A stretch of DNA of 34,751 nucleotides, taken from NCBI GenBank assembly GCA_021741195.1, contig JAIOYL010000012.1, forward strand, positions 1 to 34,751, written 5' to 3'. The first letter of the stretch is position 1. Each line of letters starts with the position of its first letter. The notes under the pieces were generated by a model. That model did no database searches. It saw nothing but the letters and a program-made list of their open reading frames with translations, and was not told where the DNA came from. This document shows, one piece after another, positions 1 to 22,782 of the stretch. This stretch comes from Sneathiella sp. GTDB taxonomy: Bacteria > Pseudomonadota > Alphaproteobacteria > Sneathiellales > Sneathiellaceae. The position numbers were made by a program, and so were the translations under genes.

Positions 1-313
1 TTGCGACGCCGGGGCGGAAATTTTCGACAACCACATCAGCGTCGTCGATCAGGCGATAGGCAATTGCCCGTCCCTCCTCCGACTTGAGATCGATTGCAAG
101 GCTTCTTTTACCAAGGTTCACCGTCAGGAAGGCAGGGGATAAGCGCTTGGCAACCATCTCAGCATCAGAAAGAGTCGTGCGGAGCTGATCCCCCTTGATC
201 GGTGCCTCGATCTTTATGACGTCCGCACCGAGCAAAGAGAACATTTGCGTGCTGATCGGGCCCGCCAAAACTTGCGTGAAATCGACAACTTTCAGACCTT
301 CATAGGCTCTCAT
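1..313 (-). CDS. Class III CoA-transferase (CaiB/BaiF family), N-terminal part only
   Basis: The gene begins at 313 on the minus strand and runs off the left edge, so only about 104 N-terminal residues are visible. The start reads MRAYEGLKVVDFTQVLAGP, followed by LGADVIKIEAP and later VNLGKRSLAIDLKSEEG and DDADVVVENFRPGV. These are the standard N-terminal blocks of formyl-CoA/carnitine-type CoA-transferases, which move CoA from one acyl thioester to a free carboxylic acid in the cytoplasm. The catalytic aspartate of the family lies beyond the visible part. Its ATG overlaps the TGA of the upstream acyl-CoA synthetase gene by four bases (ATGA), so the two are probably translationally coupled as the distal end of the leftward tetR operon. 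The acid substrate is unknown; activation of a terpenoid or branched acid is an inference from context. Confidence 0.9.
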   Translation of the reverse strand, partial: MRAYEGLKVVDFTQVLAGPISTQMFSLLGADVIKIEAPIKGDQLRTTLSDAEMVAKRLSPAFLTVNLGKRSLAIDLKSEEGRAIAYRLIDDADVVVENFRPGVA

Positions 314-2409
314 GTTGCGCTTCCTTTCGGGACGATCAATGCATCGACCGCAACCGCCCCTTTGGGCAGAACGATGAAGGGGTTGACGTCAATCGTCTCA
401 ATCTTGTCCGCATTCTCGGCGGCAAAAACGGAAAGCCTGGAAAGCGCGTCGGCGAGCGCGTTCAAGTCCGAAGGTGGCGCACCGCGCACACCATCGAGCA
501 TTGCCCGCCCCTGGATTTCGTCTATCATCCGATAGGCTTCATCCACGCCGAAGGGCGCAAGCCGAAAAGTGACGTCTTTCAACACCTCGACGAAGACACC
601 GCCAAGGCCGAACATGACAGCCGGACCGAAAACCGGATCGCAGACAACGCCCATCACCGTCTCCACGCCGCCCGAGACCATTTCGGCAACGATGACGCCA
701 TCAATTTTCGCATCTGGTTTCGCTTTTTTTGCGCGCTCTATCAGCGTGTCGAACCCTTCAGAGACTTCCTTTTCGGAGTTTAGCTTCAACAGCACGCCAC
801 CGATTTCCGTCTTGTGGAGAATATCCGGCGAGGCGATCTTCATGACCACGCCGCCGCCGATATCCCGCCAGACCCTGACGGCATCGGCCGCCGATTGCAC
901 GAGTTCTTCCCGGGTAACAGGAACGCCGATACTTGAAAGGACTTTCTTTGCTTCATGCTCGGCAATGGGTTCCGTCGGCGCGGGCAATGCGCTATCGGGA
1001 AGTTTCGCCGGAGCATCCGGACGGCCACGGGCAAATACTTCGCCAAAGTAAGTGAGCGCCGCCATCGCCCGGACCGTGAGCGACGGATCCTCATAGCAGG
1101 GCATTTTCAATTTTTCGTAGATCGAGACAATCTCCTCTGGACCGATAAGGCTCATCATCATGACTTCGTCGGGATATTTCGTCCGGATATTCTTGAAGAT
1201 CTGCTCGCAAGCATCCTTCGTAAAGGGCGAAGCCGGCACACCCGCAAGATAAACGATGTGGCTGTCGAAGTCCGCCTCCTCAATCGTCATCTCGATGTTG
1301 GCTTCCATCAGTTTTGGATCGTTCAGCGCCTGGGCGGTAAAATCCACCGGATTGGCGACTCCCGCAAAAGGGATAAGGTCCTTCATTTTTTTCTGCGTTG
1401 CGGCAGGAATTGGCGCAACGTCCAGACCATATTTCACCGACGCGTCCGCCATCTGAACGCCGACACCGCCGGAGATAGTCTGCAGGTCTATCTTGCGCCC
1501 CTTCGGATATTTCCCGAACTGGCAGGCGTAGGCGATATCGATAAATTCTTCGGTTGTCTCTGCGCGGTAGACGCCATACTGCTTAAAAAGCGCATCATAA
1601 ATCGCGTCCGCCCCGGCAAGCGATGCGGTATGGGAGGCCGCCGCCGCCGCGCCTGCTTCGGTTTTTCCGACTTTCATGAAAATGACCGGTTTTTCAGCGT
1701 CCCGCGCCATTTCCAGCGCCCGGCAGACCCTGTCCGCATTCTTCATCCCTTCCGCATAGGCGAGGATGACCTCCACTTCCGGGTTCTGGGCGTAATATTC
1801 GATTACTTCGGCAACATCGACGTCGGATTCGTTCCCCGTCGTCACCCAATAGTTGGAGCCGACACCGCGCAGCTGCGACACCGTGAAGACATGCGCGCCA
1901 TAGGCGCCGCTCTGGCTGACAATCCCGATCGGTCCGGGCGGTTGCAGTAGCGCCCCTGGCGCATTGCTGAAGGTTCCATACCAGCCTGCGCTGATATTGA
2001 AGACGCCAAGACAGTTGGGGCCGACAATCCGCATTCCGCTGGTCCGGGCAATCTCGGTAATCTCACGCTGCGCCCTTGCGCCGTCCTCACTCTGCTCGGC
2101 AAAGCCCGAGGTGAACATGACTGCGCTTTTGACCCCCTGGTCCGCGCAGTCGCGCAATGTCTGCACGGCGACTTTCGCTGCAACCGCGATCACCGCGCAA
2201 TCGACGCCTTTCGGCACATCCTGAATGCTCGCATAGGCGGGCAATCCCTGAATTGTCTCGTAATTCGGATTAACCGGATAGATATTGCCTTTGTAACCGG
2301 CAGTCTTCATCGCGTGGATGGGACGGCCACCAATACGCGACGCCGTATCAGAGGCGCCGATGATGGCGACAGATTTTGGCCGCAGCATGGGCTCAAGTGG
2401 ATGGGTCAT
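310..2409 (-). CDS. NDP-forming acyl-CoA synthetase (acetate--CoA ligase family, ATP-grasp)
   Basis: The 699-residue protein has the fused layout of ADP-forming acyl-CoA synthetases. A CoA-binding Rossmann domain (about 8-135, with SVAIIGAS near the start and VGPNCLG at 129-135) is followed by succinyl-CoA-ligase-like domains containing SQSGAYG (about 165) and SHTASLAG (about 259), whose histidine matches the phosphorylated histidine of the family. A C-terminal ATP-grasp_5 domain lies beyond about 485, with KIASPDILHKTEIGGV. The family reversibly couples acyl-CoA formation to ATP/ADP through phosphohistidine. The start at 2409 is supported by AAGGA eight bases upstream. It lies downstream of atuA and is coupled to the CoA-transferase. 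The acyl substrate cannot be read from sequence; recycling a released acid such as acetate, or activating the terpenoid acid, are both plausible. Confidence 0.9.
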   Translation of the reverse strand: MTHPLEPMLRPKSVAIIGASDTASRIGGRPIHAMKTAGYKGNIYPVNPNYETIQGLPAYASIQDVPKGVDCAVIAVAAKVAVQTLRDCADQGVKSAVMFTSGFAEQSEDGARAQREITEIARTSGMRIVGPNCLGVFNISAGWYGTFSNAPGALLQPPGPIGIVSQSGAYGAHVFTVSQLRGVGSNYWVTTGNESDVDVAEVIEYYAQNPEVEVILAYAEGMKNADRVCRALEMARDAEKPVIFMKVGKTEAGAAAAASHTASLAGADAIYDALFKQYGVYRAETTEEFIDIAYACQFGKYPKGRKIDLQTISGGVGVQMADASVKYGLDVAPIPAATQKKMKDLIPFAGVANPVDFTAQALNDPKLMEANIEMTIEEADFDSHIVYLAGVPASPFTKDACEQIFKNIRTKYPDEVMMMSLIGPEEIVSIYEKLKMPCYEDPSLTVRAMAALTYFGEVFARGRPDAPAKLPDSALPAPTEPIAEHEAKKVLSSIGVPVTREELVQSAADAVRVWRDIGGGVVMKIASPDILHKTEIGGVLLKLNSEKEVSEGFDTLIERAKKAKPDAKIDGVIVAEMVSGGVETVMGVVCDPVFGPAVMFGLGGVFVEVLKDVTFRLAPFGVDEAYRMIDEIQGRAMLDGVRGAPPSDLNALADALSRLSVFAAENADKIETIDVNPFIVLPKGAVAVDALIVPKGSAT

Positions 2410-2444
2410 TGATTTTTTCCTTCTTATCCCTTTTTTCGAATTCT

Positions 2445-4256
2445 TTATGCCAGTCTTTTGGCGAGAGAGCTAGGGACTTTCACAGGCAAGGCCAGTAATT
2501 GCTGGGCATAGGTTTTCGCCAGGTTATCAAGATGCAATGTCGACGTTCCGCCGCCGCCGAGACAATTGGTCAGCAGGAAATTGATAGCCTTCATACCCGG
2601 AAGGTCGAACCGCATGACGTCCCCTTCCACGACATGACCAAACCACTTTTTTACGCTGTCTTCCGTGGCGCTTTGCTTTATCCAGGGCAGGTAGTCCGCC
2701 GACCGCGCAATGACGCCGACGTTGGCATTGTTGCCCTTGTCGCCGCTCCGGGCCGCCGCGAGCTTGATCAGCGGCACCTCCACCGTTGCTTCGGGTGTCG
2801 GCGTTAACGCATCATCCCCTTCTGCATGCTTCGGTGTTGGAAATTCCGAGAAGGATGCAGGAACCGGAATATTAAAATTAACCGGTTTATTGGAAACAAT
2901 TATCAATGGCTGGATGCGCGCCTTGTCAATCTGGAATGCAAACTGCGCAACGACTGGCGTGATCTTCGGTCGGCCTGCCGCCCCGGCGGAGCAGCGCCCT
3001 GTCGTCATGGACAACCCGACACCTGTCGTCTCTTTCGAGAATAATTCCAGCGCTGCCTTCTCGTCATGGCGGACATCGATCTGCGTAATGATCTCCCGCG
3101 CGGCAGCCGCATGTTCGTCCGCATTGTTTCCCCAAAGCGTTTGTGCACCGATTATGTGAATGGCCGTATCCTGATAGTCGCCAAGATTTCTCTCCATAAA
3201 CAACCGCCTGGTTCGCTTCAACAGCGCTTCGGCAAAGGCCTTGCCTTTTTCAACCGCATCAAATCCGGTAATGACAGTCGATGCCGTCGCGCGATATCCA
3301 TCCTTATAGGTTCCGGATACCTTGTAGGTTGACGTCGGTGCGCGCCCCTTGGCTCCGGCGATTTCCAACCAGTCCTTTTTTGTTTCATTAAGCGTGACGC
3401 CGGAAAAATCGCAGATGACATCTGGCATGATATAGGCAGAAGGATCCCCAATCTCGTAGAGGATCTGTTCGCCAACGGAAAGGCGGGACACAATTCCACC
3501 CGTGTTTTCAGGCTTAGTAATGGCGAAAGTGCCATCGCCTCTGCAGACTGCAATCGGATAACCCATGTCGTCCCAGCCCGCCACGGTATCGCGCCAGTCC
3601 GTGAAATTCCCGCCGGTCGCCTGCGCGCCGCATTCCAGAATATGCCCCGCGAGCGAACCGGACGCAAGTTTGTCATAGTCATCAACGGTCCAGCCGAACT
3701 CATGAATAAGCGGGCCGAGCGTAACGGCACTGTCGACGCATCTGCCGGTGATGACCACATCCGCGCCCGCGTCCAATGCGACGGCGATGGGAAAGGCCCC
3801 AAGATAGGCATTGGCACTGATCATGCTGTCGGGCATAGGGGCACCGGAAAACATTTCGCTTGTGCCCTGCGCCCGCAGGCTTTCGATCTCGTCGGCAAGA
3901 TTATCGCCTTCGACCGTACCAATCTTGAGATCGACGCCAGCCTCTTCTGCTACTTTCGCAAGCGCCGCAGCGCAGGCTGCGACATTAACGCCACCCGCAT
4001 TGGCCACAACCTTGATGCCACGCGCCTTAATCTCGTGAATTAGTGGTTTCATGACCAGGCTGACGAAGTCGCTGGCGTATCCGGCATCGGGGGATTTTTC
4101 CTTCGCCCGCACCAGGATAGACATGGTGACTTCCGCAAGATAATCGAAAACGAGATAATCGACGTTTCCTTTAAGGACGAGTTGCCGAGGCGCTTCCTGG
4201 GAATCACCCCAATAACCGGAGGCGCCGCCAATACGGATGGTTTTTGAACGGGTCAT
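2445..4256 (-). CDS. atuA: AtuA family protein (DUF1446 plus AtuA-like C-terminal domain)
   Basis: The protein opens with IRIGGASGYWGDS and continues with LVFDYLAEVTMSIL and KVVANAGGVN. These are hallmark blocks of the AtuA/DUF1446 family, which occupies roughly residues 5-440. The C-terminal AtuA-like domain (about 495-590) contains LAAARSGDKGNNANVGVIAR and NCLGGGGTSTLHLD. AtuA is needed for citronellol/geraniol growth in pseudomonads, but its reaction is not established as far as I know. An in-frame ATG at 4265 overlaps the upstream hydratase stop as ATGA, but AAAGG abuts it directly. The ATG at 4256 has AAAGG nine bases upstream, so I prefer it (603 residues; 606 with the other start). It follows the enoyl-CoA hydratase gene in the leftward operon. 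Confidence 0.92.
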   Translation of the reverse strand: MTRSKTIRIGGASGYWGDSQEAPRQLVLKGNVDYLVFDYLAEVTMSILVRAKEKSPDAGYASDFVSLVMKPLIHEIKARGIKVVANAGGVNVAACAAALAKVAEEAGVDLKIGTVEGDNLADEIESLRAQGTSEMFSGAPMPDSMISANAYLGAFPIAVALDAGADVVITGRCVDSAVTLGPLIHEFGWTVDDYDKLASGSLAGHILECGAQATGGNFTDWRDTVAGWDDMGYPIAVCRGDGTFAITKPENTGGIVSRLSVGEQILYEIGDPSAYIMPDVICDFSGVTLNETKKDWLEIAGAKGRAPTSTYKVSGTYKDGYRATASTVITGFDAVEKGKAFAEALLKRTRRLFMERNLGDYQDTAIHIIGAQTLWGNNADEHAAAAREIITQIDVRHDEKAALELFSKETTGVGLSMTTGRCSAGAAGRPKITPVVAQFAFQIDKARIQPLIIVSNKPVNFNIPVPASFSEFPTPKHAEGDDALTPTPEATVEVPLIKLAAARSGDKGNNANVGVIARSADYLPWIKQSATEDSVKKWFGHVVEGDVMRFDLPGMKAINFLLTNCLGGGGTSTLHLDNLAKTYAQQLLALPVKVPSSLAKRLA

Positions 4257-4261
4257 GTCCC

Positions 4262-5089
4262 TCATCCTTTCACTTTATCATCAGTTATCTGCCAGGCGGG
4301 TTTTCGTTTTTCGGCAAAGGCGGACTGGCCTTCCTTGCCTTCCGAGCTCCGGTTCAATTCAGAGAATTTCGTGGCGGAGAAACGGATCATGTCCTCTTCC
4401 GGAAGAGAGCCCACTTTCAACATAATGGCCTTGGTCGCGGCATTCGCCATTGGCCCGCAGCGCATCACCCTGGCAACGACATCTTCCAGTGTCTGATCTA
4501 TTTCCGCATCAACGCAAAGATATTGTGCAATGCCATAGTCGAAGGCTTTCACGCCATCGAAGCGATCGCCGGTGAGAGCAAGCTGCCGTGCCCGCGTCAA
4601 CCCGATACGCTTGACGACATAAGGCGCAATCTGCGCCGGCGCAACGCCGAGTGTCGTCTCCGGCATCCCCATGCGCGCGCCTTCTGCGACGATAGTAATA
4701 TCGGCGAGGCAGGCATATCCCATGCCGCCGCCAAAAGCGGACCCTTCCACCACGGCAATGGTCGTCTGCGGTAAATGTTCGAATTTCAAAAAAGCCATGC
4801 CGGCGTCGCGGTTCCGCTCCATAATCGGGTCGCGATCTTTCGTCACAACATCGTCGGCCATATTGCGCCGCTCCTTTATATCGCCGCCCGCGCAGAAATG
4901 TCCGCCCGCTCCGCGCAAGACAACAACCCGCACTTCCGGTGTCGCTTGCAGCCAGTCAACGACTGCCGCGAATTCCGCCCCCATCTGGCTGTTGATCGCG
5001 TTGCGTTGGTCCGGCCGGTTGAATGTCAGGTTCAGGCGCGGCCCCTTGACTTCCAGCAGCAAATTTTCACATTCAGGTAATCCATGCAT
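4262..5089 (-). CDS. Enoyl-CoA hydratase, glutaconyl-CoA hydratase type (AtuE/LiuC-like)
   Basis: This is a 275-residue crotonase. The oxyanion-hole segment GGHFCAGGDIKERR is at about 62-75 and a second glycine-rich segment SAFGGGMGYACLAD at about 117-130. Of the two crotonase glutamates, the one in GMPETTLG (E144 here, equivalent to rat E164) is kept. The other (rat E144 in GGCEL) is glycine 124. Loss of that residue together with the VAPAQIAPYVVKRIG block is typical, from memory, of methylglutaconyl- and isohexenylglutaconyl-CoA hydratases (LiuC, AtuE). With atuA directly downstream and a carboxylase nearby, hydration of isohexenylglutaconyl-CoA is the best guess. The start has only a purine-rich leader and no strong ribosome site. 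The TetR gene ends 39 bases upstream, so the two are likely co-transcribed. Confidence 0.88.
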   Translation of the reverse strand: MHGLPECENLLLEVKGPRLNLTFNRPDQRNAINSQMGAEFAAVVDWLQATPEVRVVVLRGAGGHFCAGGDIKERRNMADDVVTKDRDPIMERNRDAGMAFLKFEHLPQTTIAVVEGSAFGGGMGYACLADITIVAEGARMGMPETTLGVAPAQIAPYVVKRIGLTRARQLALTGDRFDGVKAFDYGIAQYLCVDAEIDQTLEDVVARVMRCGPMANAATKAIMLKVGSLPEEDMIRFSATKFSELNRSSEGKEGQSAFAEKRKPAWQITDDKVKG

Positions 5090-5128: not shown

Positions 5129-5746
5129 TTATTTTTCGGTCAGGTATTTTTTAAACATATCCTTAAACTGGTCTATTTGCAGCGAAACTTTTTCATGTCC
5201 TCCCGCAATCATTTTCGTAAGGGCGAGGCCCCTGAGAATAATCAACAGCATCAAACGCCAAGAGAGGATTTCCTTCCGTCCACGCCCACTATCGGCAAAA
5301 ACCCTTTGCCAGACAATAGCTCTTTGCTGCTCCAGCTCCTCCAAGGTTGAAGAAATTGCAGCCTCGAATTCCGGATCCTGGCGTCCCCGCACGGCAATTT
5401 CGATAAAGGCCGCATAATTTTCACTTCTAAATCCGCGCCAATAGTCGTCGACCACCCTGTCAATCCGCGCGGGCAACGGCAACTTGATGAGATCATCGGC
5501 CGCCAGATGCTGACCAAGACGTCCAGCAATCTCGACGATACTATCCATCAACAGAGACTTCGGGCTATCAAAATGATATTGAATGGCGCCCCGCGTGAGC
5601 CCCGCTTCCCGCGCGACATCCTCCATGGTCAGTTGCGCGGCCCCTTTTTCATGCAGCAGCTTTATCGTCGCCTCAACCAGCTTGGCGCGGGTTTCAAGGC
5701 GCCGTTCTTCCTGCCGCCTCCGCCCGCCTCCATTCTCCTCATCCAT
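5129..5746 (-). CDS. TetR/AcrR family transcriptional regulator (AtuR-like position)
   Basis: The N-terminal helix-turn-helix reads TRAKLVEATIKLL, then LTMEDVAREAGLTRGAIQYH and FDSPKSLLMDSI, the standard TetR DNA-binding pattern at about 20-70. The remainder is a divergent helical ligand-binding domain with WRGFRSENYAAFIEIAVRG. Length (about 205 residues) is normal. I place the start at the ATG at 5746. A GTG at 5755 in the same frame has a weak AGAGA six bases upstream and is an alternative. The gene heads the leftward operon and faces the rightward acyl-CoA dehydrogenase operon across a 180-bp gap holding a perfect palindrome, the usual arrangement for a local repressor acting on both sides. 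AtuR of pseudomonads is a TetR repressor of the atu genes, so an acyl-CoA or terpenoid-CoA ligand is likely (inference). Confidence 0.93.
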   Translation of the reverse strand: MDEENGGGRRRQEERRLETRAKLVEATIKLLHEKGAAQLTMEDVAREAGLTRGAIQYHFDSPKSLLMDSIVEIAGRLGQHLAADDLIKLPLPARIDRVVDDYWRGFRSENYAAFIEIAVRGRQDPEFEAAISSTLEELEQQRAIVWQRVFADSGRGRKEILSWRLMLLIILRGLALTKMIAGGHEKVSLQIDQFKDMFKKYLTEK

Positions 5747-5821
5747 GAAAGTCACTGGGCATCTCTTTCACATCCGTTCTTCCCGCAAAAAATCGGACAG
5801 ATCCCGCCAAATTAATTGCAA

Positions 5822-5931: not shown

Positions 5932-7077
5932 ATGCAATTCACCCAGGAACACCGGGAACTTACCGAAAGTCTGAAAAAATTCATCGAGGCGGAAATCAAT
6001 CCCCATGTCGACGGGTGGGAGGAAGCGGAGCAGTTTCCCGCCCACAAGCTCTTCAAAAAAATGGGCGACATGGGATTTCTAGGGATCAGTAAACCCGCCG
6101 AATATGGCGGCAGCGGTCTGGACTATTCCTATGAGGCGGTCGCGTCGGAAGCACTCGGATATATCGCCTGTGGCGGCGTCGCCATGGCGATTGGCGTGCA
6201 GACGAATATGTCTACGCCCGCTCTCGCCCGGCATGGCTCGGATGAACTCCGCCGGAATTTCCTCGCGCCCGCTATCAAAGGCGAGATGGTCGGTTGCGCC
6301 GGCGTGACGGAGGCCGCCGCCGGTTCGGACGTTGCCAGCCTCAAGACGACAGCGCGCAAAGACGGCGACGACTACGTGATCAACGGCTCGAAGATGTATA
6401 TCACCAACGGCTTGCAGGCGGACTGGATTTGCCTTCTTGCAAACACCGGCGACGGCCCCGCACACAAGAACAAGTCGCTGATCATTGTTCCTATGGACAG
6501 CCCCGGCATAACGAAACACAAGATCCGCAAGATCGGTATGATGTCCTCCGATACCGCACAGCTTTTCTTTGATGAGGTACGGGTACCCCAGCGCAACCGG
6601 ATCGGCGAGGAAGGACGCGGCTTTATCTATCAGATGCAGCAGTTCCAGGAGGAACGGCTGTTTGCCGCCGCCCGCGGTCCCCGGGTCATGGAAGAGGCGA
6701 TTAATGAGACGATTGAATATACCCGTGAACGCAAGGCTTTCGGGAAATCCATCCTCGACAATCAGGTGGTAAATTACCGTCTCGCGGAATTGCAAACGGA
6801 AGTCGAGGCGCTGAGGGCCCTTACCTACCATGCAGTCGAGCGGTATGTCTCGGGTGAGGATGTCACCAAGCTCGCCTCCATGGCGAAACTGAAAGTCGGG
6901 CGGCTGCAACGTGAAGTGATGGACAGCTGCCTGCAATATTGGGGTGGTCAGGGCTACATGTGGGAATCTTCTATCTCCCGCAAATTCCGTGATTTCCGCC
7001 TCACGTCCATCGGCGGCGGTGCAGATGAAGTCATGCTGAAGGTGATCACCAAACTGATGGGGATCTCGCCGGACTGA
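5932..7077 (+). CDS. atuD: Acyl-CoA dehydrogenase, citronellyl-CoA dehydrogenase type
   Basis: The 381-residue protein has the complete acyl-CoA dehydrogenase fold. Features include the FAD/substrate motif GVTEAAAGSDVASLKTT (about 124-140), INGSKMYITNG, the arginine of TRERKAFG and the C-terminal LQYWGGQGYMWE and IGGGADEVM. The usual MCAD-type C-terminal glutamate position is glycine (IGGGADE). Glutamate 241 in QFQEERL lies where isovaleryl- and long-chain-type dehydrogenases carry their base. The blocks AIGVQTNMSTPALARHGSDE and YQMQQFQEERL agree closely, from memory, with AtuD, which makes the 2,3-double bond of geranyl-CoA from citronellyl-CoA. It is the first gene of a rightward operon behind the palindrome; the next gene starts 11 bases after its stop. 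Confidence 0.85.
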   Translation: MQFTQEHRELTESLKKFIEAEINPHVDGWEEAEQFPAHKLFKKMGDMGFLGISKPAEYGGSGLDYSYEAVASEALGYIACGGVAMAIGVQTNMSTPALARHGSDELRRNFLAPAIKGEMVGCAGVTEAAAGSDVASLKTTARKDGDDYVINGSKMYITNGLQADWICLLANTGDGPAHKNKSLIIVPMDSPGITKHKIRKIGMMSSDTAQLFFDEVRVPQRNRIGEEGRGFIYQMQQFQEERLFAAARGPRVMEEAINETIEYTRERKAFGKSILDNQVVNYRLAELQTEVEALRALTYHAVERYVSGEDVTKLASMAKLKVGRLQREVMDSCLQYWGGQGYMWESSISRKFRDFRLTSIGGGADEVMLKVITKLMGISPD

Positions 7078-7088: not shown

Positions 7089-8300
7089 ATGGATCTAACG
7101 GATCGCGCGGAGCATAAGATTTTCCGTGAGGAAGTGCGCGACTTTATTGCCGCTTACCGGCATCTCGCCCCCGAAGACACTGCCCATTCCTATAGGCTGA
7201 TGCCCCGCCCCTATTCAGACGAAGTGCGGAACTGGCAGAAACTGCTGGTCGAGAAAGGCTATGCGAACCGGACTGTCCCAAAGGCTTATGGCGGCTTCGG
7301 TGCGGAGCCGGATATCCTGAAATCGAAAATTATCGCGGACGAGTTTTTTAAGGTAAATGTGCCGCAAGGGCTCTACAGTCAAGGTATCTCTATGCTGGTG
7401 CCGACGTTATTGGAACATGGCACGGAAGAGCAAAAGAGAAAATGGATCGCCCCAACGGTCCGCGCCGACGTTTTCTGGTGCCAAGGCTACTCGGAACCCA
7501 ATTCAGGTTCCGATCTCGCCAGCCTACAAACGAGCGCCATTGAGGATGGCGATGATTTCATCATCAACGGCTCGAAAATCTGGACATCCTCGGCCCATGT
7601 CGCGCAAATGATTTTCTGCCTCGTCAGAACCGAACCTGAAGCCGGAAAATATGATGGGATCAGTTACCTGATTTTTCCAATGGATACACCCGGGATTGAG
7701 ATACGGCCACTGCAAACGATGACAGGCCACCCGTCCTTCAACGAGGTCTTCTTCACTGACGTCCGCGTCCCGAAAGCAGCCGTCGTCGGCGGCCGCGGCA
7801 ACGGCTGGAAAGTCGCGAACAGTACTCTTGCTCATGAGCGCGGCATGCTGTCCAACGCAAATCTGTCGCTGGAGCGGTTACAGAAAATCGAGAAGCTCCT
7901 CAAGACCGAAACAATTGACGGCGCGCCTGTCGGCGAGAATGCCGCCCTGATGGATCGCTATATTCGCCTGCAGGCGCGGGTGCAGGGCATGCGGCTCCAT
8001 GAAATGCGGCTGATTACGGCGGCATCCATGGGTAAGCCGCGCGGCCTCGAGGATTTGGTCTGCAAGCTGCTCGGGTGCGAAATCAACCATCAGCTCGATG
8101 CTCTCGCCATAGATATCCTAGGTGAGATTGGCGTTCTCTACGACGGCATTCCCTCGATCGATCTCGACGGGGTCTGGCAGCAGCTTTACATGTATGATCT
8201 TGGCCTGATCATCGGTGGCGGCACCGCGCAAATCCAGAAGAATATCATAGCGGAACGAGGCCTGGATATGCCGCGTGAGCCTAAAACGACAAAAGGATAA
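7089..8300 (+). CDS. Acyl-CoA dehydrogenase, FadE pair, probable catalytic subunit
   Basis: The 403-residue protein has the dehydrogenase blocks GYSEPNSGSDLASLQT (about 133-148), INGSKIWTSSAH and a C-terminal LGLIIGGGTAQIQKNIIAER. Glutamate 250 in LAHERGML sits at the internal catalytic-base position used by isovaleryl-type enzymes. The sequence style and its direct partner gene recall the heteromeric alpha2beta2 dehydrogenases that act on sterol side chains in actinobacteria (FadE26/27-like). A strong ribosome site (GAGGGAGGG) fixes the start. It lies in an operon between atuD and its presumed partner. A bulky branched or cyclic acyl-CoA is a likelier substrate than a straight chain, by family analogy only. 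Confidence 0.88.
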   Translation: MDLTDRAEHKIFREEVRDFIAAYRHLAPEDTAHSYRLMPRPYSDEVRNWQKLLVEKGYANRTVPKAYGGFGAEPDILKSKIIADEFFKVNVPQGLYSQGISMLVPTLLEHGTEEQKRKWIAPTVRADVFWCQGYSEPNSGSDLASLQTSAIEDGDDFIINGSKIWTSSAHVAQMIFCLVRTEPEAGKYDGISYLIFPMDTPGIEIRPLQTMTGHPSFNEVFFTDVRVPKAAVVGGRGNGWKVANSTLAHERGMLSNANLSLERLQKIEKLLKTETIDGAPVGENAALMDRYIRLQARVQGMRLHEMRLITAASMGKPRGLEDLVCKLLGCEINHQLDALAIDILGEIGVLYDGIPSIDLDGVWQQLYMYDLGLIIGGGTAQIQKNIIAERGLDMPREPKTTKG

Positions 8301-8304
8301 CCCG

Positions 8305-12270
<3,966 letters not shown>

Positions 12271-15978: not shown

Positions 15979-16211
15979 TCGGAACTCCGGCTTATTTTTA
16001 TTTTTATTTATTAATAGCATAGGTAAGTCTGTGGGGTTAAGAAAAAAACGGCGTCTGCAAATTTAGCCCGTCGAAATTCTCTGGCGTTATATCCGCAGTC
16101 GTTCTAAACTGCACCAATGCCGGTAATGGCATCGCGGGGAACACGGAAAACGTGGCCCAAGGCAAAGACATATAACGGCACTAAGAAATAATAAAAAAGG
16201 AGCCTGTCGAG

Positions 16212-17681
16212 ATGGAAGTAGGAATATTGGCCTACGGGGGATATATCCCGCAAAGCCGATTGCAGCGTAGCGAAATTGCCAAAGCCCATAGCTGGTTTAA
16301 CCCGGGATTAAAGGGCCTCGCCAAAGGTGAGCGCGCCATGGCGAACTGGGATGAGGACAGCGTCACCATGGCGGTCGAAGCCGCGCGGGATTGCTTGGCC
16401 GATTTTGACCGCGATCAGCTCTCCGCGGTCTATATGGCCTCAACCACCTTTCCGTTTATGGATCGGCAGAATGCCGGTATCGTTGCTGACGCGTTGAATT
16501 TGAATAGCAGTCTGCAAACTCTGGATTTCGCCTCCTCGCAACGCGCGGGCAGTGGCGGATTGTCCGTCGCCTTGCAGGTCGCCAATGGCGGCAGCGGCCC
16601 GATCCTGTTCACCACGTCCGAAAAACGTCTGACTAGGGCTGCAAGCCCACTGGAAATGACTTCAGGTGATGGCGCTGCTGCTTTCCTCGTTGGTCAGGGC
16701 AAGGTGATTGCCCGTCTTCTAGGTAGCCATACAGAAGCCGTCGATTTTGTCGATCACTTCCGCGGCGAGGGCGAGGCATATGATTATAACTGGGAAGAAC
16801 GCTGGGTGCGCGATGAGGGCTATCTCAAGATCGTACCTGCGGCGGTTGAAGCCCTCCTTTCAAAAACCGGCGTCACGGCGGCGGAAATTACCACCTTCTG
16901 CTTCCCGGTGGCCGCGCGCGGCGTCGCGGCAAGCCTTGCGAAGAAAATCGGCATGCCGGAGAGTGCGGTTGCGGATAATCTGCAGGAAAATTGTGGTGAA
17001 ACCGGCACAGCCCACTCCATGGTGATGCTGGCCCAAGCGCTGCAGAACAGCAAGCCCGGCGACAAGATCCTTGTCGCAAGCTTCGGTCAGGGCAGTGACG
17101 CTCTGCTCTTTGAGGTGACAAAAGAAATTAACTCGCTTTCACCGCGCAAAGGGGTATCCGGTTATCTTGCTCGCCGCTATGCGGAAACCAATTACAACAA
17201 GTTCCTGGCTTTCCACGACCTCGTCAATTTGGAACGAGGCATTCGCGCGGAAACGGACAAAAAAACAGGACTTACGACCCTCTACCGGAACAAGAGCATG
17301 ATCCAGGGAATGGTGGGCGGACAATGTTCGCAATGCGGTACGGCGCAGTTCCCGAAATCCAATATGTGCGTCAACGAAAATTGCGGCGCCATAGGTACGC
17401 AGGAGGATTACCCCTTCGCAGATCGGGTTTCCAAGGTGAATTCCTTTACCGCTGACCGGCTGACCTATTCTCCCGATCCGCCCGCTTACTACGGCATGAT
17501 CCAATTCGAGGAAGGCGGGCGGTTGATGAGTGATTTTACGGACGTTTCACCGGAGACCGACATCAAGGTGGGCATGCCTATGCGCATGATGTTCCGGGTC
17601 AAGGACTATGACAACAAGCGTGGGTTCAGGCGCTATTTCTGGAAAGCGGCCCCCGCGGGCGCTTCAAATAAAGGAGAATAA
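16212..17681 (+). CDS. HMG-CoA synthase-like thiolase-fold protein fused to a C-terminal OB-fold/zinc-ribbon (DUF35) domain
   Basis: The N-terminal 310 residues resemble archaeal-type HMG-CoA synthase (MEVGILAYGGYIPQSRL, TSGDGAAAFLVGQGKVIARL, a glycine-rich NCGETGTAHSMVMLAQAL). A DUF35-type rubredoxin-like zinc ribbon follows, with C372, C375, C386 and C391 in QCSQCG...MCVNENCG, then an OB fold. The canonical catalytic cysteine position (NACYGG in the family) reads RAGSGG, so G113 replaces it. The FHxP histidine reads FCFP, with C230. The active glutamate segment reads ASTTFPFMD. This is my manual alignment. The gene is divergent from the carboxylase operon and two bases upstream of a thiolase. 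A role in cleaving the 3-hydroxy-3-isohexenylglutaryl-CoA analogue of HMG-CoA is a hypothesis. AAGGAG nine bases upstream supports the start. Confidence 0.82.
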   Translation: MEVGILAYGGYIPQSRLQRSEIAKAHSWFNPGLKGLAKGERAMANWDEDSVTMAVEAARDCLADFDRDQLSAVYMASTTFPFMDRQNAGIVADALNLNSSLQTLDFASSQRAGSGGLSVALQVANGGSGPILFTTSEKRLTRAASPLEMTSGDGAAAFLVGQGKVIARLLGSHTEAVDFVDHFRGEGEAYDYNWEERWVRDEGYLKIVPAAVEALLSKTGVTAAEITTFCFPVAARGVAASLAKKIGMPESAVADNLQENCGETGTAHSMVMLAQALQNSKPGDKILVASFGQGSDALLFEVTKEINSLSPRKGVSGYLARRYAETNYNKFLAFHDLVNLERGIRAETDKKTGLTTLYRNKSMIQGMVGGQCSQCGTAQFPKSNMCVNENCGAIGTQEDYPFADRVSKVNSFTADRLTYSPDPPAYYGMIQFEEGGRLMSDFTDVSPETDIKVGMPMRMMFRVKDYDNKRGFRRYFWKAAPAGASNKGE

Positions 17682-17683
17682 TA

Positions 17684-18889
17684 ATGGCTTCAGGAATTAG
17701 AGATAAGGTTGCTATTTTGGGCATGGGTTGCTCGAAGTTCGGCGAACGCTGGAACGACAACGCGGAAGATCTGATGATCGAGGCCTATGTCGAAGCTCTT
17801 GAAGATGCTGGCATTGAGAAAAGCCAGATCGAGGCTGCCTGGCTTGGCACCGGAATTGAGGAAGAACATGTCGGCAAGTCGGCGGTTCCGCTTTCCATGG
17901 CGTTGCGGCTACCCAATATTCCGGTTACGCGCGTTGAAAACTATTGCGCCAGCGGATCAGAAGCCTTCCGGGGCGCCGTCTATGCCGTTGCCTCCGGCGC
18001 CTGTGATATTGCCCTGGCTCTCGGCGTCGAGAAGCTGAAAGACACCGGCTACGGCGGTCTGCCGCAACGCAATCGTGGCTCCGTCAACGACCTGTTCTGG
18101 GCGAATGCTTCTGCGCCCGGATCTTTCGCGCAACTTGCCTCCGCATATTCCGCCAAGCATGGTGTCAGCAAGGAAGACATGAAGCGGGCCATGGCCCATA
18201 TTTCTGTCAAAAGCCATGACAACGGGTCACGCAATCCGAAGGCGCATCTTCGCAACAAGATCAATGAAGACAAAGTGATAAACGCTCCGATCATTGCGGA
18301 TCCGTTTGGCCTTTTTGATTGCTGCGGCGTCAGTGACGGATCAGCCTGCGCCATCGTAACAACGCCGGAAATCGCAAAATCCCTCGGCAAGAAAGATCCC
18401 GTACCGGTCAAGGCGATGCAGCTTTCAGCCTCCAATGGTACCGAAGCCCAGCATAACTCCTGGGACGGTAGCTATTTTGTGACCACGCGCGCTGCTGCCA
18501 ATCGCGCTTATAAGGAAGCGGGGATCACTAAACCCCGCGACCAGATCAGTTTGTTCGAGGTTCATGACTGTTTCTCCATTACGGAATTTGTTACCATGGA
18601 AGACCTTTTCATTTCCGAGGAGGGCAATGCGGTCAACGATATCATGAATGGCTTCTATGATGCGGACGGCAAAATTCCCTGCCAGATTGATGGCGGTCTT
18701 AAATGCTTCGGCCACCCGATCGGCGCGTCGGGCCTTCGCATGATTTACGAGATGTATCTGCAGATGCAGGGCCGCGCGGGAGAACGCCAGCGTAAAGAGG
18801 AACCAGTCTTCGGCATGACGCATAATCTGGGCGGTTTCCCCCATCAGAATGTCTGCTCAATCACGATTGTCGGAAAAGAAGGCGCGTAA
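17684..18889 (+). CDS. Thiolase family protein (SCP2/lipid-transfer-type)
   Basis: The 401-residue thiolase has the nucleophile C88 in VENYCASGSEA, a histidine in FEVHDCFSITE (H294) and the GGLKCFGHPIGASG block with H344, which is the SCP2-thiolase pattern. It can therefore perform thiolysis of a 3-oxoacyl-CoA or a related retro-Claisen reaction. The start is fixed by AAGGAG at 17671-17676, seven bases upstream. The gene follows the HMGS-like gene after two bases, so the two probably form a complex, as thiolase-fold proteins and DUF35 domains commonly do. The natural substrate may be 7-methyl-3-oxo-6-octenoyl-CoA (inference from the Atu pathway). A strong terminator follows. Confidence 0.88.
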   Translation: MASGIRDKVAILGMGCSKFGERWNDNAEDLMIEAYVEALEDAGIEKSQIEAAWLGTGIEEEHVGKSAVPLSMALRLPNIPVTRVENYCASGSEAFRGAVYAVASGACDIALALGVEKLKDTGYGGLPQRNRGSVNDLFWANASAPGSFAQLASAYSAKHGVSKEDMKRAMAHISVKSHDNGSRNPKAHLRNKINEDKVINAPIIADPFGLFDCCGVSDGSACAIVTTPEIAKSLGKKDPVPVKAMQLSASNGTEAQHNSWDGSYFVTTRAAANRAYKEAGITKPRDQISLFEVHDCFSITEFVTMEDLFISEEGNAVNDIMNGFYDADGKIPCQIDGGLKCFGHPIGASGLRMIYEMYLQMQGRAGERQRKEEPVFGMTHNLGGFPHQNVCSITIVGKEGA

Positions 18890-18901
18890 TTCTTTTCGCT
18901 G

Positions 18902-18949: not shown

Positions 18950-18958
18950 CAGACAGTT

Positions 18959-20500
18959 TCAGGCTGATTTACGAAGGTCGCCTATCTTGTCTTTCAGAAC
19001 CCTTTTTAAAACCTTCCCCGTCGCGTTGCGCGGCAATTCATCCATAAACACCACATGTTTCGGGATCTTGTAGCGGGCGAGCTTGTCCTGGCAAAAGAGG
19101 ACCAGATCATCGGCGGTCAGTTTTTTATCCGGCGCCACTACAACGACGGCGCATCCAACCTCATCCCAGCGATCATCCGGCACTCCGATGATGGCGAGGT
19201 CGGCGATTTCCGGCATTTTGAATAATATGCTCTCGATTTCTGCCGGATAGACATTCTCCCCGCCGGAGATATACATATCCTTCCAGCGGTCGACGATAAA
19301 ATAATGCCCATCCTCATCGACGCGGCAGGCGTCGCCGGTATGGAGCCAGCCGTCCGTGATTGCTTCCGCGTTTGCTTCCGGCCGGTTCCAGTAGCCAGGA
19401 GTAATATTCGGGCCCTTCACCCAGAGCTCACCGGTCGTTCCTTGCGGAACATCATTTCCATTCTCATCGACGACGCGCGCCTCGGCATTCATCGCCAGCT
19501 TGCCCGCGGAGCCCGGCTTGGCAAATGCCATCTCTGCATCCTGAACGGTAACGGTCGGGCTTGTCTCGGTCATGCCATAACCTTGCTGTAGGGCCAGACC
19601 GCGCGCCTTGTAGGCTTCAAGAAGCGGTACCGGTGTTGGCGCGCCGCCGACGCCTGAGCAGGCTAAACGCGAGAGATCCGTCGCGCCGAATGCCGGATGC
19701 TGGCTCATGAAAAGATAATTCGCTGGCACGCCGAAGAAATGGGTAAGGCCGATCTCCGGATCATCAATAAGCCGGAGGCATTCGCCGGGGTCAAAGGTGC
19801 GCATGACAAGGGTCGTGCCGCCGAAATAAAGCGCAACCGAGCTATAACAGTTCAGCCCGCCCGTATGGAAGAGTGGCAGTATGGTGAGCGTCTTCGCATT
19901 CGGCGTGAAATAGGTCGGAACACCCAAATTCACCGCGTTGTAAAAAGCCATGCCATAAGTGTTCATCGCGCCCTTCGGCAGACCAGTCGTGCCCGAGGTA
20001 TACATGATCGTCCAGACATCGTCATGGGTGAGTGTGGCAACCACCGGTGTCGGGCTTGCGGCCGCGATAGCTGCCTCATAGGGTGTATGGCCACCACCGC
20101 CCGTTGTCTCCAATATATGGGACACGCCTGTTTTTTCTTTCAGTTCTACCATCTCAGCCGCAAACTGCGCGTCGTGGATCATTACCTTTGGCTCGGCATC
20201 GCGGATGATAAAATCGAGCTCCGACACCGTCAGCCGCCAGTTCAAAGGAAGGAATATAGCGCCAATCTTGGCGCATGCGGCCTGTGTCTCGAGCATATCC
20301 GTCGAGTTCATCGCAAGAACACCGACGCGATCGCCTTTTTCAACACCGCAGTTCTTCTGCAGATGCGCCGCGAGCCTCAACGCCCGGTCATTGGCCTCGG
20401 CATAAGTGAAGTGGCGATTGGAGTGAAGGTCCACCCAGACCTCCTTCCCCGGCACCCTTTCCGCGTGATGGGCCAGCCAGTCATAATGCATTACAGTCAT
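18959..20500 (-). CDS. AMP-forming acyl-CoA synthetase (AtuH-like position)
   Basis: The 513-residue adenylate-forming ligase has the P-loop IMYTSGTTGLPKGAM (about 165-179), the A5 block GYGMTETSPTV, and the hinge region LHTGDACRVDEDGHYFIVDR followed by WKDMYISGGENVYPAEIES. The catalytic C-terminal lysine is in RNATGKVLKR (about K496). It converts a carboxylic acid, ATP and CoA to acyl-CoA, AMP and pyrophosphate. GGAGG five to six bases upstream supports the start. It lies 46 bases downstream of an acyl-CoA dehydrogenase gene in a two-gene leftward operon. In the Atu scheme it would activate citronellate or geranate, but medium-chain or aromatic acids cannot be excluded from sequence. Confidence 0.9.
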   Translation of the reverse strand: MTVMHYDWLAHHAERVPGKEVWVDLHSNRHFTYAEANDRALRLAAHLQKNCGVEKGDRVGVLAMNSTDMLETQAACAKIGAIFLPLNWRLTVSELDFIIRDAEPKVMIHDAQFAAEMVELKEKTGVSHILETTGGGGHTPYEAAIAAASPTPVVATLTHDDVWTIMYTSGTTGLPKGAMNTYGMAFYNAVNLGVPTYFTPNAKTLTILPLFHTGGLNCYSSVALYFGGTTLVMRTFDPGECLRLIDDPEIGLTHFFGVPANYLFMSQHPAFGATDLSRLACSGVGGAPTPVPLLEAYKARGLALQQGYGMTETSPTVTVQDAEMAFAKPGSAGKLAMNAEARVVDENGNDVPQGTTGELWVKGPNITPGYWNRPEANAEAITDGWLHTGDACRVDEDGHYFIVDRWKDMYISGGENVYPAEIESILFKMPEIADLAIIGVPDDRWDEVGCAVVVVAPDKKLTADDLVLFCQDKLARYKIPKHVVFMDELPRNATGKVLKRVLKDKIGDLRKSA

Positions 20501-20546
20501 AGTTTCCTCCCGGTCATACTTTTTGTTCTTTTGGGTTTTTCTTTAC

Positions 20547-21734
20547 TTATATCTCCATCTGGCGCGCGACAAGATCGCGCATGATCTCTTCCGATCCGCC
20601 GCCGATCGCCATCACACGCACCTCGCGATAAATCCGTTCCACGCGGCACCCCCGCATATAACCGGCGCCGCCCAGTATCTGCATCGCCTCGCGCGCGCAG
20701 AATTCAAGGGTCTGCGTCGCCTGGACCTTCAGCAGGGAAAGATCTGCGACCGGGCGTTCACCCGCCTCCACACGGAAGGCGCATTGCTCAAGATAGGCCT
20801 GGGTCGCGTTTATCTTGCGAGCCATTTCGGCAAACTTGTGACGGATCACCTGATGATCGGCTAGCCTTTTGCCAAAGGTCTTGCGCTCCCGCGCCCAGGC
20901 GAGGGCATCCTCAAGACAAACTCGCGCCGATGCATTGGCACCCGCAGCCATTCCCAGTCTTTCGCTGTTGAAATTGGTCATGACACCAATGAAGCCTTTG
21001 TTTTCCTCGCCGATCAGGTTGCTTTTGGGTACCCGGACGTCATCAAAATAAAGTACCGCAGTATCAGATGCCCACCACCCCTGCTTCTTGAGCGGTGTAC
21101 GGGTAAAGCCAGGCCGGTCCCGCTCGATCAGCAGCAAGGAAACGCCCCCCCGCCCCTCGCCGCCGGTGCGGACGGCCACACTATAATAATCGGCACGCAT
21201 GCCGCCCGTGATAAACATCTTCGAGCCGTTCACCAGATAGTCATCGCCGTCGGCAACGGCACGGGTCTGGAGGTTCGCGACATCCGATCCGCCGGAGGGT
21301 TCCGTAATGGCCAGCGCATGGATCTTTTCCCCCGCAAGAACGGCGGGGGCAATTCTGCGCTTCATTTCCTCTGATCCGGTGGCAAGGACCGGAGGCAAAC
21401 CGATGCTATGCACCATCAGGCTTGCGTTGATGCCGCCCGCCCCGATGCGGGCCATTTCCTCGGCGGTTATGATATTGAAAAAGGCATCGACCGGCGTGCC
21501 GCCGTATTCCTCCGGATAGCCCAGGCCCAGTAGCCCGACAGCCGCCGCCTTCTTATAGAGATCGCGCGGGAATTCGCCCGCCTCGTCCCACTCATCTACA
21601 TGAGGCATGATTTCCTGATAGACAAAGGCGCGGAGGGTCGCCCGCCAGGCGCGGTGATCTTCTGTGTAATAGGGGCCATGGTAGCGGTGGTCAAAGTCAA
21701 ACGGATTCTCTCCATTTTCGAACGACGGGGCCAT
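20547..21734 (-). CDS. Acyl-CoA dehydrogenase
   Basis: The 395-residue protein has ITEPSGGSDVANLQTRAV (about 143-160), VNGSKMFITGGMRADYY, ARERKTFGKRLADHQ, ILGGAGYMRG and a C-terminal MAIGGGSEEIM. As in the atuD-type enzyme, glycine occupies the MCAD glutamate position. E258 in NFNSERLGM is the likely base. About 20 extra N-terminal residues precede the first dehydrogenase helix. It is the first gene of the leftward operon with the AMP-forming ligase. It may provide a second dehydrogenation step, for example on the shortened C6 intermediate, but the substrate is not readable. AAAAAAGGA upstream supports the start at 21734. Confidence 0.9.
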   Translation of the reverse strand: MAPSFENGENPFDFDHRYHGPYYTEDHRAWRATLRAFVYQEIMPHVDEWDEAGEFPRDLYKKAAAVGLLGLGYPEEYGGTPVDAFFNIITAEEMARIGAGGINASLMVHSIGLPPVLATGSEEMKRRIAPAVLAGEKIHALAITEPSGGSDVANLQTRAVADGDDYLVNGSKMFITGGMRADYYSVAVRTGGEGRGGVSLLLIERDRPGFTRTPLKKQGWWASDTAVLYFDDVRVPKSNLIGEENKGFIGVMTNFNSERLGMAAGANASARVCLEDALAWARERKTFGKRLADHQVIRHKFAEMARKINATQAYLEQCAFRVEAGERPVADLSLLKVQATQTLEFCAREAMQILGGAGYMRGCRVERIYREVRVMAIGGGSEEIMRDLVARQMEI

Positions 21735-21933
21735 TGCATTGGTCCTTTTTTCTTAATTTTACAACCGATCCGCTTCATGAACGGATATCTCATTTTCCCT
21801 TATCATGCCCGTTTTCGAAGGTTTGTGAAAGCCCCTCGCACGCAAATTGCGAAGAGATTTGAAACCTGCCCCATATCGCCGTAAGATGAGAAAAAATAAC
21901 AACGATCCTCACATCAGAAAGGGACAACCCGCC

Positions 21934-22782
21934 GTGACCGACAGCTGCTTCGACGTACAAATAGCCAACGACATTGCCCATATCATCCTCAATCGGCCGG
22001 AAAAGCGAAACAGCATGATCCCTGCATTCTGGAATGAACTTCCGGAAATTGTCCATGACATTGATGAGAATGCAAAGGCACGGGTTATTGTTATCTCCTC
22101 AACAGGTCCGCATTTCACATCCGGTCTGGATGTCAGCTCGTTTGCTAAAGCGGAGATTACGGATCCGGCGGCAAAAAGGGCCGCTCGCCTTCGTGCCGGC
22201 GCCGACTTCTATGGCACCGTCAAGAATATGCAACAGGCCTTCACGGCTCTGGAGGAATGCCGCGTTCCCGTTCTTGCCGCCATCCAGGGCGGCTGCATAG
22301 GCGGCGGCGTTGATCTGATTACCGCTTGTGACATGCGCTATGCTACAAAGGATGCCTTCATCACGATTTTCGAGACGAACATCGGCATGACCGCCGACGT
22401 TGGAACTTTCCCCCGCATTTCAAAACTCATTGCCGACGGCGTCGCGCGGGAGCTCGCCTATACTGGCCGCCGCATGCCTGCCGACGAGGCGAAAGATGTC
22501 GGGCTCGTCAACCGTGTTTTTGACGATCATGCAGCGATGATGAAAGGCGTTATGGAAGTGGCGTCCGAAATCACCAGAAAAGCACCACTTGCGGTCATGG
22601 GATGCAAGCGTCTGATGAATTACTCGAGGGATCATTCGGTGCAGGACGGTCTCGACTATATCGCCATCTGGAATGCCAGCATGCTGCAACGGGAAGAGAT
22701 TTTTGAGGCGATGAAGTCCAATGCCGAGAAACGGCCCGGCGAGTTTGTCGATCTTCCGCCGATCAAGAAACATATTGGCTAA
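21934..22782 (+). CDS. Crotonase family protein, delta3,5-delta2,4-dienoyl-CoA isomerase-like
   Basis: I use the GTG at 21934, which has AAAGGGA about ten bases upstream and gives VTDSCFDVQIANDIAHIILN (282 residues). In-frame ATGs at 21886 and upstream lack a ribosome site. Family blocks are GPHFTSGLDVSSFAKAE (about 58-73), QGGCIGGGVDLITACDMRYA and TIFETNIGMTADVGTFPR. The three acidic residues used by mammalian ECH1 dienoyl-CoA isomerase appear conserved as D127, E147 and D155, which separates it from plain hydratases. It would move conjugated double bonds during breakdown of unsaturated chains, in keeping with the dienoyl-CoA reductase in the same block. It is divergent from the dehydrogenase gene at 21734. 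Confidence 0.87.
   Translation: MTDSCFDVQIANDIAHIILNRPEKRNSMIPAFWNELPEIVHDIDENAKARVIVISSTGPHFTSGLDVSSFAKAEITDPAAKRAARLRAGADFYGTVKNMQQAFTALEECRVPVLAAIQGGCIGGGVDLITACDMRYATKDAFITIFETNIGMTADVGTFPRISKLIADGVARELAYTGRRMPADEAKDVGLVNRVFDDHAAMMKGVMEVASEITRKAPLAVMGCKRLMNYSRDHSVQDGLDYIAIWNASMLQREEIFEAMKSNAEKRPGEFVDLPPIKKHIG

Follow-up and report, generated by a model that had tools for sequence, protein, structure and literature searches.

Does a catabolic gene block from the marine bacterium Sneathiella sp. encode a complete Atu-like route for isoprenoid acids, and which of its proteins would cleave the hydroxyglutaryl-CoA intermediate? The block occupies positions 1-22782 of the 34,751-nucleotide contig JAIOYL010000012.1 (assembly GCA_021741195.1), which was analysed over its full length and is called the window here; the genome to which this contig belongs measures 3.38 Mb and is 92% complete. 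The block comprises 17 genes, its left edge is the contig end, and genes of other kinds follow rightward. The original prediction, made from the sequence alone, described a possible alphaproteobacterial version of the acyclic-terpene (Atu) pathway that lacked a visible lyase and the AtuB/AtuG reductases. The geranyl-type carboxylase, AtuE-like hydratase and AtuA supported an alphaproteobacterial Atu-like pathway. We describe a conserved, variant Atu-type cluster in which the step called missing has a good candidate and the TIGR03084 family a testable role. It is likely that the block strips from isoprenoid acyl-CoAs the beta-methyl branch that hinders degradation of terpene-like acids, by Atu logic and with AtuA as the lyase. 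The genes on which this argument turns are the following.

2445..4265, minus strand: AtuA, candidate acetate-releasing lyase (PF07287, E 1.8e-138, and C-terminal AtuA_ferredoxin PF23544, both over their cut-offs)
4262..5089, minus strand: AtuE-like hydratase, a crotonase (family match and solved relatives)
11476..12270, minus strand: TIGR03084 MDMPI-type metal protein, proposed thiol-dependent Z/E isomerase (TIGR03084, 292 bits, cut-off 248)
12316..14304, minus strand: carboxylase alpha subunit, biotin carboxylase plus biotin carrier (AMKM biotin site)
14356..16020, minus strand: carboxylase beta subunit (carboxyltransferase), geranyl-CoA-carboxylase-like by scores, tree and pocket residue

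A structure model of AtuA (pLDDT 86) matched a single PDB chain at E<=0.001, namely 9evf_A (E 4.1e-23, probability 1.00), from an entry entitled "Citramalate lyase - ADP - pyruvate complex". The small C-terminal part of AtuA matched the 105 aa chain 9evf_B (probability 1.00, E 0.0077), more weakly than the large part matched its chain. The only match at E<=0.1 in the sequence search was the same protein, carrying the names "AtuA family protein" and "citramalate lyase subunit A" (E 0.0042), and G-R-x2-D and I-L-E-C motifs were common to both sequences in the alignment. Across 19 AtuA rows, G174, R175, D178, E211 and C212 were invariant, as was RSGDKG (506-511) in the small part. In genome G129, AtuA was split into a 457 aa PF07287 gene and a 117 aa PF23544 gene, followed directly by a phosphate acetyltransferase gene (L111:6307-9007), as would suit an acetyl product. 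The carboxylase pair and TIGR03084 of this genome lie on another contig. By its predicted fold, AtuA unites in one protein homologues of the two subunits of the solved citramalate lyase CmlA/CmlB (9erq, 9evf), the large part resembling chain A and the small part chain B. It differs from CmlA/CmlB in being one fused chain, in its 18% identity over the structural alignment, and in its expected substrate, a CoA ester. With such a protein encoded, the statement that the block lacks a visible lyase is probably wrong. Together with the genomes described below, in which 3-hydroxy-3-methylglutaryl-CoA (HMG-CoA) lyase was not found, the fold match and the split gene suggest that AtuA is probably an acetate-releasing lyase.

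HMG-CoA lyase was called with model NF004283 at E<=1e-20 in 337 alphaproteobacterial genomes, absences being read from the match list, and was found in 174 of them. Sixteen sampled genomes hold AtuA, both carboxylase genes and TIGR03084 at one locus, referred to here as the core. Eight of these, from three families, encode HMG-CoA lyase (G000, G290, G054, G154, G162, G234, G242, G301), and in the other eight, from four families, it was not found (G015, G076, G103, G105, G190, G210, G263, G279). The latter genomes are 95-100% complete, and two of them consist of one contig. When the LiuE of the window's own genome was used as a query, zero matches at E<=1e-10 were obtained in all eight, and G015, G210 and G279 each held a single carboxyltransferase match at E<=1e-60. 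None of 72 AtuA locus rows showed a match to HMG-CoA lyase at a distance of up to 12 kb from AtuA; these rows include a piece of the window (L098) as well as L002 and L058, probably one strain with identical carboxyltransferase rows. The three HMGL-like (PF00682) genes of the window's genome all sit on other contigs. In five genomes with AtuA and the carboxylase and no TIGR03084 at the locus, HMG-CoA lyase was present in G001, G006, G033 and G099 and not found in G046. If the core works in the eight lyase-free genomes, a cleaver other than HMG-CoA lyase must act there, and within the core it is AtuA whose predicted fold is of the lyase type.

The carboxylase, as judged from its sequence, is geranyl-CoA-carboxylase-like and not leucine-type. 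Its beta subunit scored 572 bits against the solved geranyl-CoA carboxylase (GCC) beta subunit 5ikl versus 466 bits against the beta subunit of methylcrotonyl-CoA carboxylase (MCC). In a tree of 33 carboxyltransferase rows, with long branches flagged among the distant rows, it fell within a 20-row group including 5ikl (support 98/98), apart from MCC and the MCC-like gene of its own genome. According to the available sections of Jurado et al. 2015 (PMC4673880), preference is set by Phe191 of MCC versus Gly162 of GCC, and MCC carries a three-residue insertion there. At this column, located by counting along the human MCC chain, the window protein has Gly, without the MCC-type insertion. G, A or S was present in 39 of 40 AtuA-linked carboxyltransferase rows, the sole Phe belonging to a second, MCC-like gene in L101; among unlinked genes, two of the own genome have Phe, and L108 and L109 have Gly. 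Carboxyltransferases covering <85% of the query (that of Mycolicibacterium chubuense among them) were dropped from this comparison, and the identical L002 and L058 were both kept. The original prediction had named as refuting a phylogeny that places the carboxylase and the dehydrogenase with leucine-degradation enzymes; for the carboxylase, the part covered by a tree, this outcome did not occur. A second AtuA-linked carboxylase clade (L018, L019, L021, L025, L065) keeps an MCC-like insertion and has Gly or Ala in place of Phe191, so that it seems to have reached the same pocket independently. The nearest solved relatives of the hydratase were 4k3w (229 bits) and the isohexenylglutaconyl-CoA hydratase 4zu2 (220 bits), the next scoring 124 bits; the NCBIfam AtuE model gave 175 bits (cut-off 426), second to PRK07468.

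Gene order is kept with few losses across other Sneathiella loci, at approximately 62-98% protein identity, indicating that the block is not a chance assembly. The window AtuA shares 80-86% identity with most named Sneathiella copies found and 67% with that of S. chinensis, which places the host in this genus or very close to it. Outside Sneathiella, what recurs is AtuA with the carboxylase pair and TIGR03084 (L041, L044, L045, L052, L112-L121), and a hydratase match accompanies them in most of these loci, with none in L118 and L121. The comparison of AtuA neighbourhoods that had been proposed showed this core in seven of the sampled alphaproteobacterial families, as well as on actinobacterial plasmids. 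Rhodococcus oxybenzonivorans pRB98 and R. opacus pLPS8 carry a single gene run with carboxyltransferase, biotin carboxylase, hydratase, TIGR03084, AtuA, dehydrogenase, AMP ligase and TetR, and M. chubuense pMYCCH.01 carries the core set in two groups on opposite strands. Achromobacter xylosoxidans A8 pA82 (NC_014642) has the core genes without TIGR03084 in the 31.6 kb seen, together with an NDP ligase, dehydrogenase, hydratase, dehydrogenase pair, OB protein, thiolase and 2,4-dienoyl-CoA reductase; it differs in its separate OB protein and in showing 28-62% identity to the window. Several of the additions listed in the original prediction therefore recur in a distant host.

The TIGR03084 protein also matches MDMPI_N, and we know of no function for this named family. 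Residues H44, H46, E138 and H142 were invariant in 16 TIGR03084 rows, and the H46-E138-H142 spacing of 92 and 4 equals that of the His-Glu-His triad in mycothiol-dependent maleylpyruvate isomerase (MDMPI). The zinc ligands of the latter are given as His52, Glu144 and His148 in the accessible part of PMC4351081, and H46 (or H44), E138 and H142 correspond to them in sequence (the TIGR03084 fold model had a pLDDT of 47). No PDB sequence match was found at E<=1, and no paper using the TIGR03084 name was found in the open-licence literature. The GCC authors doubted that trans geranyl-CoA would fit (PMC4673880); an enzyme interconverting Z and E forms would therefore make sense next to this carboxylase. 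TIGR03084 may be a zinc and thiol enzyme making Z-enoyl-CoA, with the difference from MDMPI that a Gram-negative host would need a thiol other than mycothiol. A glutathione S-transferase (GST) gene, from another thiol-enzyme family, stands directly after the CoA-transferase gene in S. chungangensis (L003:15205-15840), and a GST gene also occurs in a run with a GCC-like pair on Tistrella pTM1 (L109).

Linkage of TIGR03084 to AtuA was partial. Among the 337 genomes, 51 have TIGR03084, which lies within 15 kb of AtuA in 18; from the other 33 genomes, 20 loci were fetched and 13 fell outside the count, two of the 20 standing by a carboxyltransferase without AtuA in view. TIGR03084 as an Atu-exclusive family was rejected on these numbers and on the 18 of 20 further loci without a carboxyltransferase. 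Neighbours of three unlinked copies, from open reading frames (ORFs) picked by length, were copper-oxidase and cupredoxin genes, beta-lactamase-fold and HXXEE genes, and genes of no family. A 50-row TIGR03084 tree without L058 requires eight changes of the linked state, defined as an AtuA or carboxyltransferase gene at most 12 kb away, and at least four of these changes are forced. The counts of AtuA against TIGR03084 and against the HMGS-like/DUF35 protein described below ignore the relatedness of genomes. An AtuA match at E<=1e-20 occurred in 94 of the 337 genomes, and 76 AtuA places with E below about 1e-91, from 64 genomes, were kept for the counts; the HMGS-DUF35 hits in G178 and G319, which were weak and partial, were left out, as was a second place in each of G031, G140, G191, G221, G223 and G289.

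Profile scans of the window ORFs gave a family match for every gene in the list of the original prediction, which held AtuA, the dehydrogenases, hydratase, carboxylase pair, ligase, TetR, TIGR03084, FadH and thiolase among others. Two left-edge genes were missing from its text, the NDP-forming ligase and the cut CoA-transferase that open the following list of the remaining genes of the block.

2..313, minus strand: family III CoA-transferase, truncated by the contig end (PF02515, E 2.7e-35)
310..2409, minus strand: NDP-forming acyl/acetate-CoA ligase (ATP-grasp_5, Succ_CoA_lig, CoA_binding_2)
5129..5755, minus strand: TetR-family regulator (PF00440)
5932..7077, plus strand: acyl-CoA dehydrogenase ACAD1, proposed AtuD-like role (family match)
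7089..8300, plus strand: PimC-like subunit of a dehydrogenase pair, optional (TIGR03204, 238 bits, below cut-off)
8275..9432, plus strand: PimD/IpdE2-like subunit of the pair, no middle-domain match, optional (family match)
9411..11573, minus strand: FadH-like 2,4-dienoyl-CoA reductase of the old yellow enzyme (OYE) type, with an Fe-S motif C-x2-C-x3-C-x11-C that we take to mark the FadH role
16212..17681, plus strand: pseudo-HMG-CoA synthase fused to DUF35, a zinc ribbon and OB fold (family match, residues)
17684..18889, plus strand: SCP2-type thiolase with C88, H294, C296 and H344 (NF004810, 694 bits, cut-off 403)
18959..20500, minus strand: AMP-forming acyl-CoA ligase (family match)
20547..21734, minus strand: acyl-CoA dehydrogenase (family match)
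21847..22782, plus strand: crotonase of the PRK06142 model (332 bits, cut-off 308), presumably a dienoyl-CoA isomerase; the model name gives crotonase/enoyl-CoA hydratase family only

The NDP-forming ligase scored 474 bits against the acetate--CoA ligase model, far under the cut-off of 1200; its proposed role is to re-activate freed acetate or to activate the acid substrate. Such a ligase also lies near AtuA in Sneathiella, G162, L014 and Achromobacter. Beyond the position of the window's left end, S. chungangensis has a full 401 aa CoA-transferase gene after the NDP ligase, then GST, rhomboid and sulfite-assimilation genes, so that by this relative no lyase or short-chain dehydrogenase/reductase (SDR) was lost just off the contig. 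The predicted lack of AtuB/AtuG was borne out, as no SDR was found among the 29 window ORFs scanned, nor among eight ORFs past the end in S. chungangensis. The solved chains nearest to ACAD1 bear the name acyl-CoA dehydrogenase or are long-chain dehydrogenase, with no AtuD model among its profile matches; in most rows from Sneathiella, and also in L013 and L014, ACAD1 travels with AtuA, the hydratase and TetR. The PimC/IpdE2-like pair is absent between the FadH-type OYE and ACAD1 in five Sneathiella rows (L002, L003, L005, L008, L058). The relative L012 retains the HMGS-like/thiolase unit and FadH (L012:1054-4900) but has neither TIGR03084 nor the carboxylase genes in the interval from the HMGS-like gene to FadH.

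The original prediction named an HMG-CoA synthase (HMGS)-like/OB-fold protein among the additions. An HMGS-like/DUF35 fusion is indeed present; its synthase residues are lost, and it looks like a thiolase partner. In an alignment to the HMG-CoA synthase of an archaeon (6esq), T78, Q110 and P232 stand in the columns of the catalytic Glu, the catalytic Cys and the presumed catalytic His. Over 23 rows, the Glu column was T in all 23, the Cys column Q/M/L/R (16/3/3/1), and the His column P in all 23, and a true HMG-CoA synthase was rejected on this basis. In the adjacent thiolase, the nucleophile C88, H294 and C296 of the HDCF motif, and the GHP histidine H344 were kept in 23 of 23 rows. A Ltp2/Sal-like retro-aldolase was disfavoured for the thiolase, given the retained nucleophilic Cys and HDCF motif. 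The placement of the Glu and Cys columns agrees with PMC6392133, which reports that both residues are gone from PhlA too, the acting residues of the PhlACB complex all belonging to PhlC. From these residues, the pair can be read as an active thiolase with an HMGS-like/DUF35 scaffold or binding partner, like PhlA. It resembles PhlACB acyltransferase and the archaeal thiolase/HMGCS/DUF35 complex (5m3k, 6esq) in combining HMGS-like, DUF35 and thiolase parts, and differs in that HMGS-like and DUF35 form one protein and in its catabolic setting. The unit is common (64/337 genomes), and HMGS-DUF35 stood within about 5 kb of a thiolase in 20 of 20 fetched loci. It lay within 15 kb of AtuA in 2/62 genomes (the window's and G290) and within 50 kb in 5/62, and was rejected as a fixed Atu-cluster part. 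The unit looks like a general acyl-CoA tool recruited here. Of the additions in the original prediction, all present as claimed, two do not define the pathway: the FadE pair, which can be missing, and the HMGS-DUF35/thiolase unit, which in most cases lies at another place in the genome.

The block resembles the Pseudomonas Atu pathway (atuABCDEFGH) in its GCC-like carboxylase, AtuE-like hydratase, AtuA, dehydrogenase, CoA ligase and TetR. It differs in having no AtuB/AtuG and in adding TIGR03084, FadH, the isomerase, the NDP ligase, the CoA-transferase and the pseudo-HMGS/DUF35-thiolase unit. Families, predicted fold, residues, core conservation and HMG-CoA lyase absences are what we observed; the substrate, the reaction order and all activities are proposed. 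An acid would be activated by the AMP or NDP ligase and converted by a dehydrogenase to 3-methyl-2-enoyl-CoA, whose Z geometry may be set by TIGR03084 as a zinc and thiol enzyme. The carboxylase pair would then add CO2 to the gamma-methyl, and the AtuE-like hydratase would form the tertiary alcohol, a 3-hydroxy-3-alkylglutaryl-CoA. Retro-aldol cleavage by AtuA, with its fused citramalate-lyase-type subunits, would yield acetate and a 3-oxoacyl-CoA, to be cleaved by the thiolase held by its dead HMGS-like/DUF35 partner. Leftover double bonds would be handled by FadH and the dienoyl-CoA isomerase, and acetate might be re-activated, possibly via the adjacent NDP-forming ligase. We advance a fuller proposal only tentatively and consider it doubtful as a whole. 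It holds jointly that AtuA, as a fused citramalate-lyase-type enzyme, cleaves 3-hydroxy-3-alkylglutaryl-CoA to acetate or an activated acetyl product in an Atu route free of HMG-CoA lyase, and that TIGR03084 is an unrecognised thiol-dependent zinc Z/E isomerase supplying the Z-3-methyl-2-enoyl-CoA that geranyl-CoA carboxylase appears to need. The activated product is hinted at by the ADP-bound relative and the neighbouring phosphate acetyltransferase.

Other explanations assign the cleavage or the substrate differently. In the canonical Atu/Liu split, the HMG-CoA-lyase homologue LiuE, encoded elsewhere in the genome, would cleave the intermediate, and AtuA would have another role. A review, in its available part, gives hydroxyglutaryl-CoA cleavage (EC 4.1.3.26) to LiuE (PMC4097962), and the window's genome has an HMG-CoA lyase gene (C1:8306-9124; 428.6 bits, cut-off 246) near an MCC-like carboxyltransferase gene (C1:3834-5438). 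This arrangement is nonetheless quite unlikely as the general one, given the lack of an HMG-CoA lyase match in eight of the 16 core-bearing genomes and within 12 kb in all 72 AtuA rows, and the predicted lyase-type fold of AtuA. LiuE could still help in genomes that have both proteins, including the window's own, and this is compatible with the data from the lyase-free genomes.

An unlikely proposal, compatible with AtuA as a lyase, is that the block acts on a ring-containing or dicarboxylic acid of isoprenoid or steroid-like type and not on an acyclic terpenoid. PimC, PimD and IpdE2 are the best models for the dehydrogenase pair, all below cut-off, and DUF35-thiolase-type complexes are found in steroid side-chain breakdown (PMC12329534). 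However, the pair is absent from the five Sneathiella rows named above (two of them probably one strain), and the thiolase keeps its four catalytic residues, whereas the aldolase Sal has Gly for the nucleophilic Cys (PMC12329534). A leucine/isovalerate-type block, providing a second methylcrotonyl-CoA route, would follow identical reaction logic, and the carboxyltransferase also matches MCC beta, at 466 bits. The higher score to GCC beta, the tree position, the missing insertion and the Gly for Phe led us to reject a leucine-type carboxylase; with a separate MCC-like gene carrying Phe in the same genome, this explanation is largely refuted and highly improbable.

Several observations weigh against an Atu-type cluster with AtuA as its lyase. 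The similarity of AtuA to citramalate lyase is weak (E 0.0042 by sequence, 18% in the structural alignment), and no paper on the citramalate lyase structure, and none joining AtuA with citramalate lyase, was found in the open-licence literature, so that the reaction and the ADP role of this relative are taken from PDB names. That the core works in the eight lyase-free genomes is assumed, and these genomes cluster by family, leaving fewer than eight independent cases. On contig C1 of the window's genome, MCC-like, hydratase-like, biotin-carboxylase and HMG-CoA-lyase genes lie within approximately 6 kb, so that cleavage could be carried out by the genome's own LiuE, an activity that has been reported for LiuE. 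A carboxyltransferase was seen in 29 of the 72 AtuA rows, many stretches being short or cut, which implies that the AtuA family is wider than this pathway. TIGR03084 likewise occurs without the core, with no carboxyltransferase in the fetched stretch of 18 of 20 further loci, some short, and with neither AtuA nor carboxylase in view at two of five actinobacterial plasmid loci, both from Rhodococcus. In L042, L043, L062-L064, L066-L069 and L073-L077, AtuA is full-length and its fetched flank, in some cases short or cut, showed no match to a carboxylase; AtuA genes of this kind suggest other substrates for the family.

Elsewhere in the window, an ArsJ organoarsenical efflux transporter gene adjoins an ArsJ-associated glyceraldehyde-3-phosphate dehydrogenase gene (24404-26691; both over NCBIfam cut-offs), followed by a cation-efflux gene at 26862-27812. 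Positions 31252-34751 hold the TRAP transporter genes DctP, DctQ and DctM, then the start of an acyl-CoA dehydrogenase gene truncated by the contig end.

Published accounts conflict over the hydroxyglutaryl-CoA cleaver. AtuA is listed as an acetate lyase by annotation and was detected in linalool-grown cells in the available part of one report (PMC4847356), and the review cited above favours LiuE in the portion at hand (PMC4097962). No paper linking AtuA, citramalate lyase structures and TIGR03084 was found in the open-licence literature. This conflict becomes directly testable through the fold match, the split gene and the lyase-free genomes. If AtuA-family proteins are indeed lyases for tertiary hydroxy acids, many genes annotated as "terpene" genes would gain a defined chemistry.

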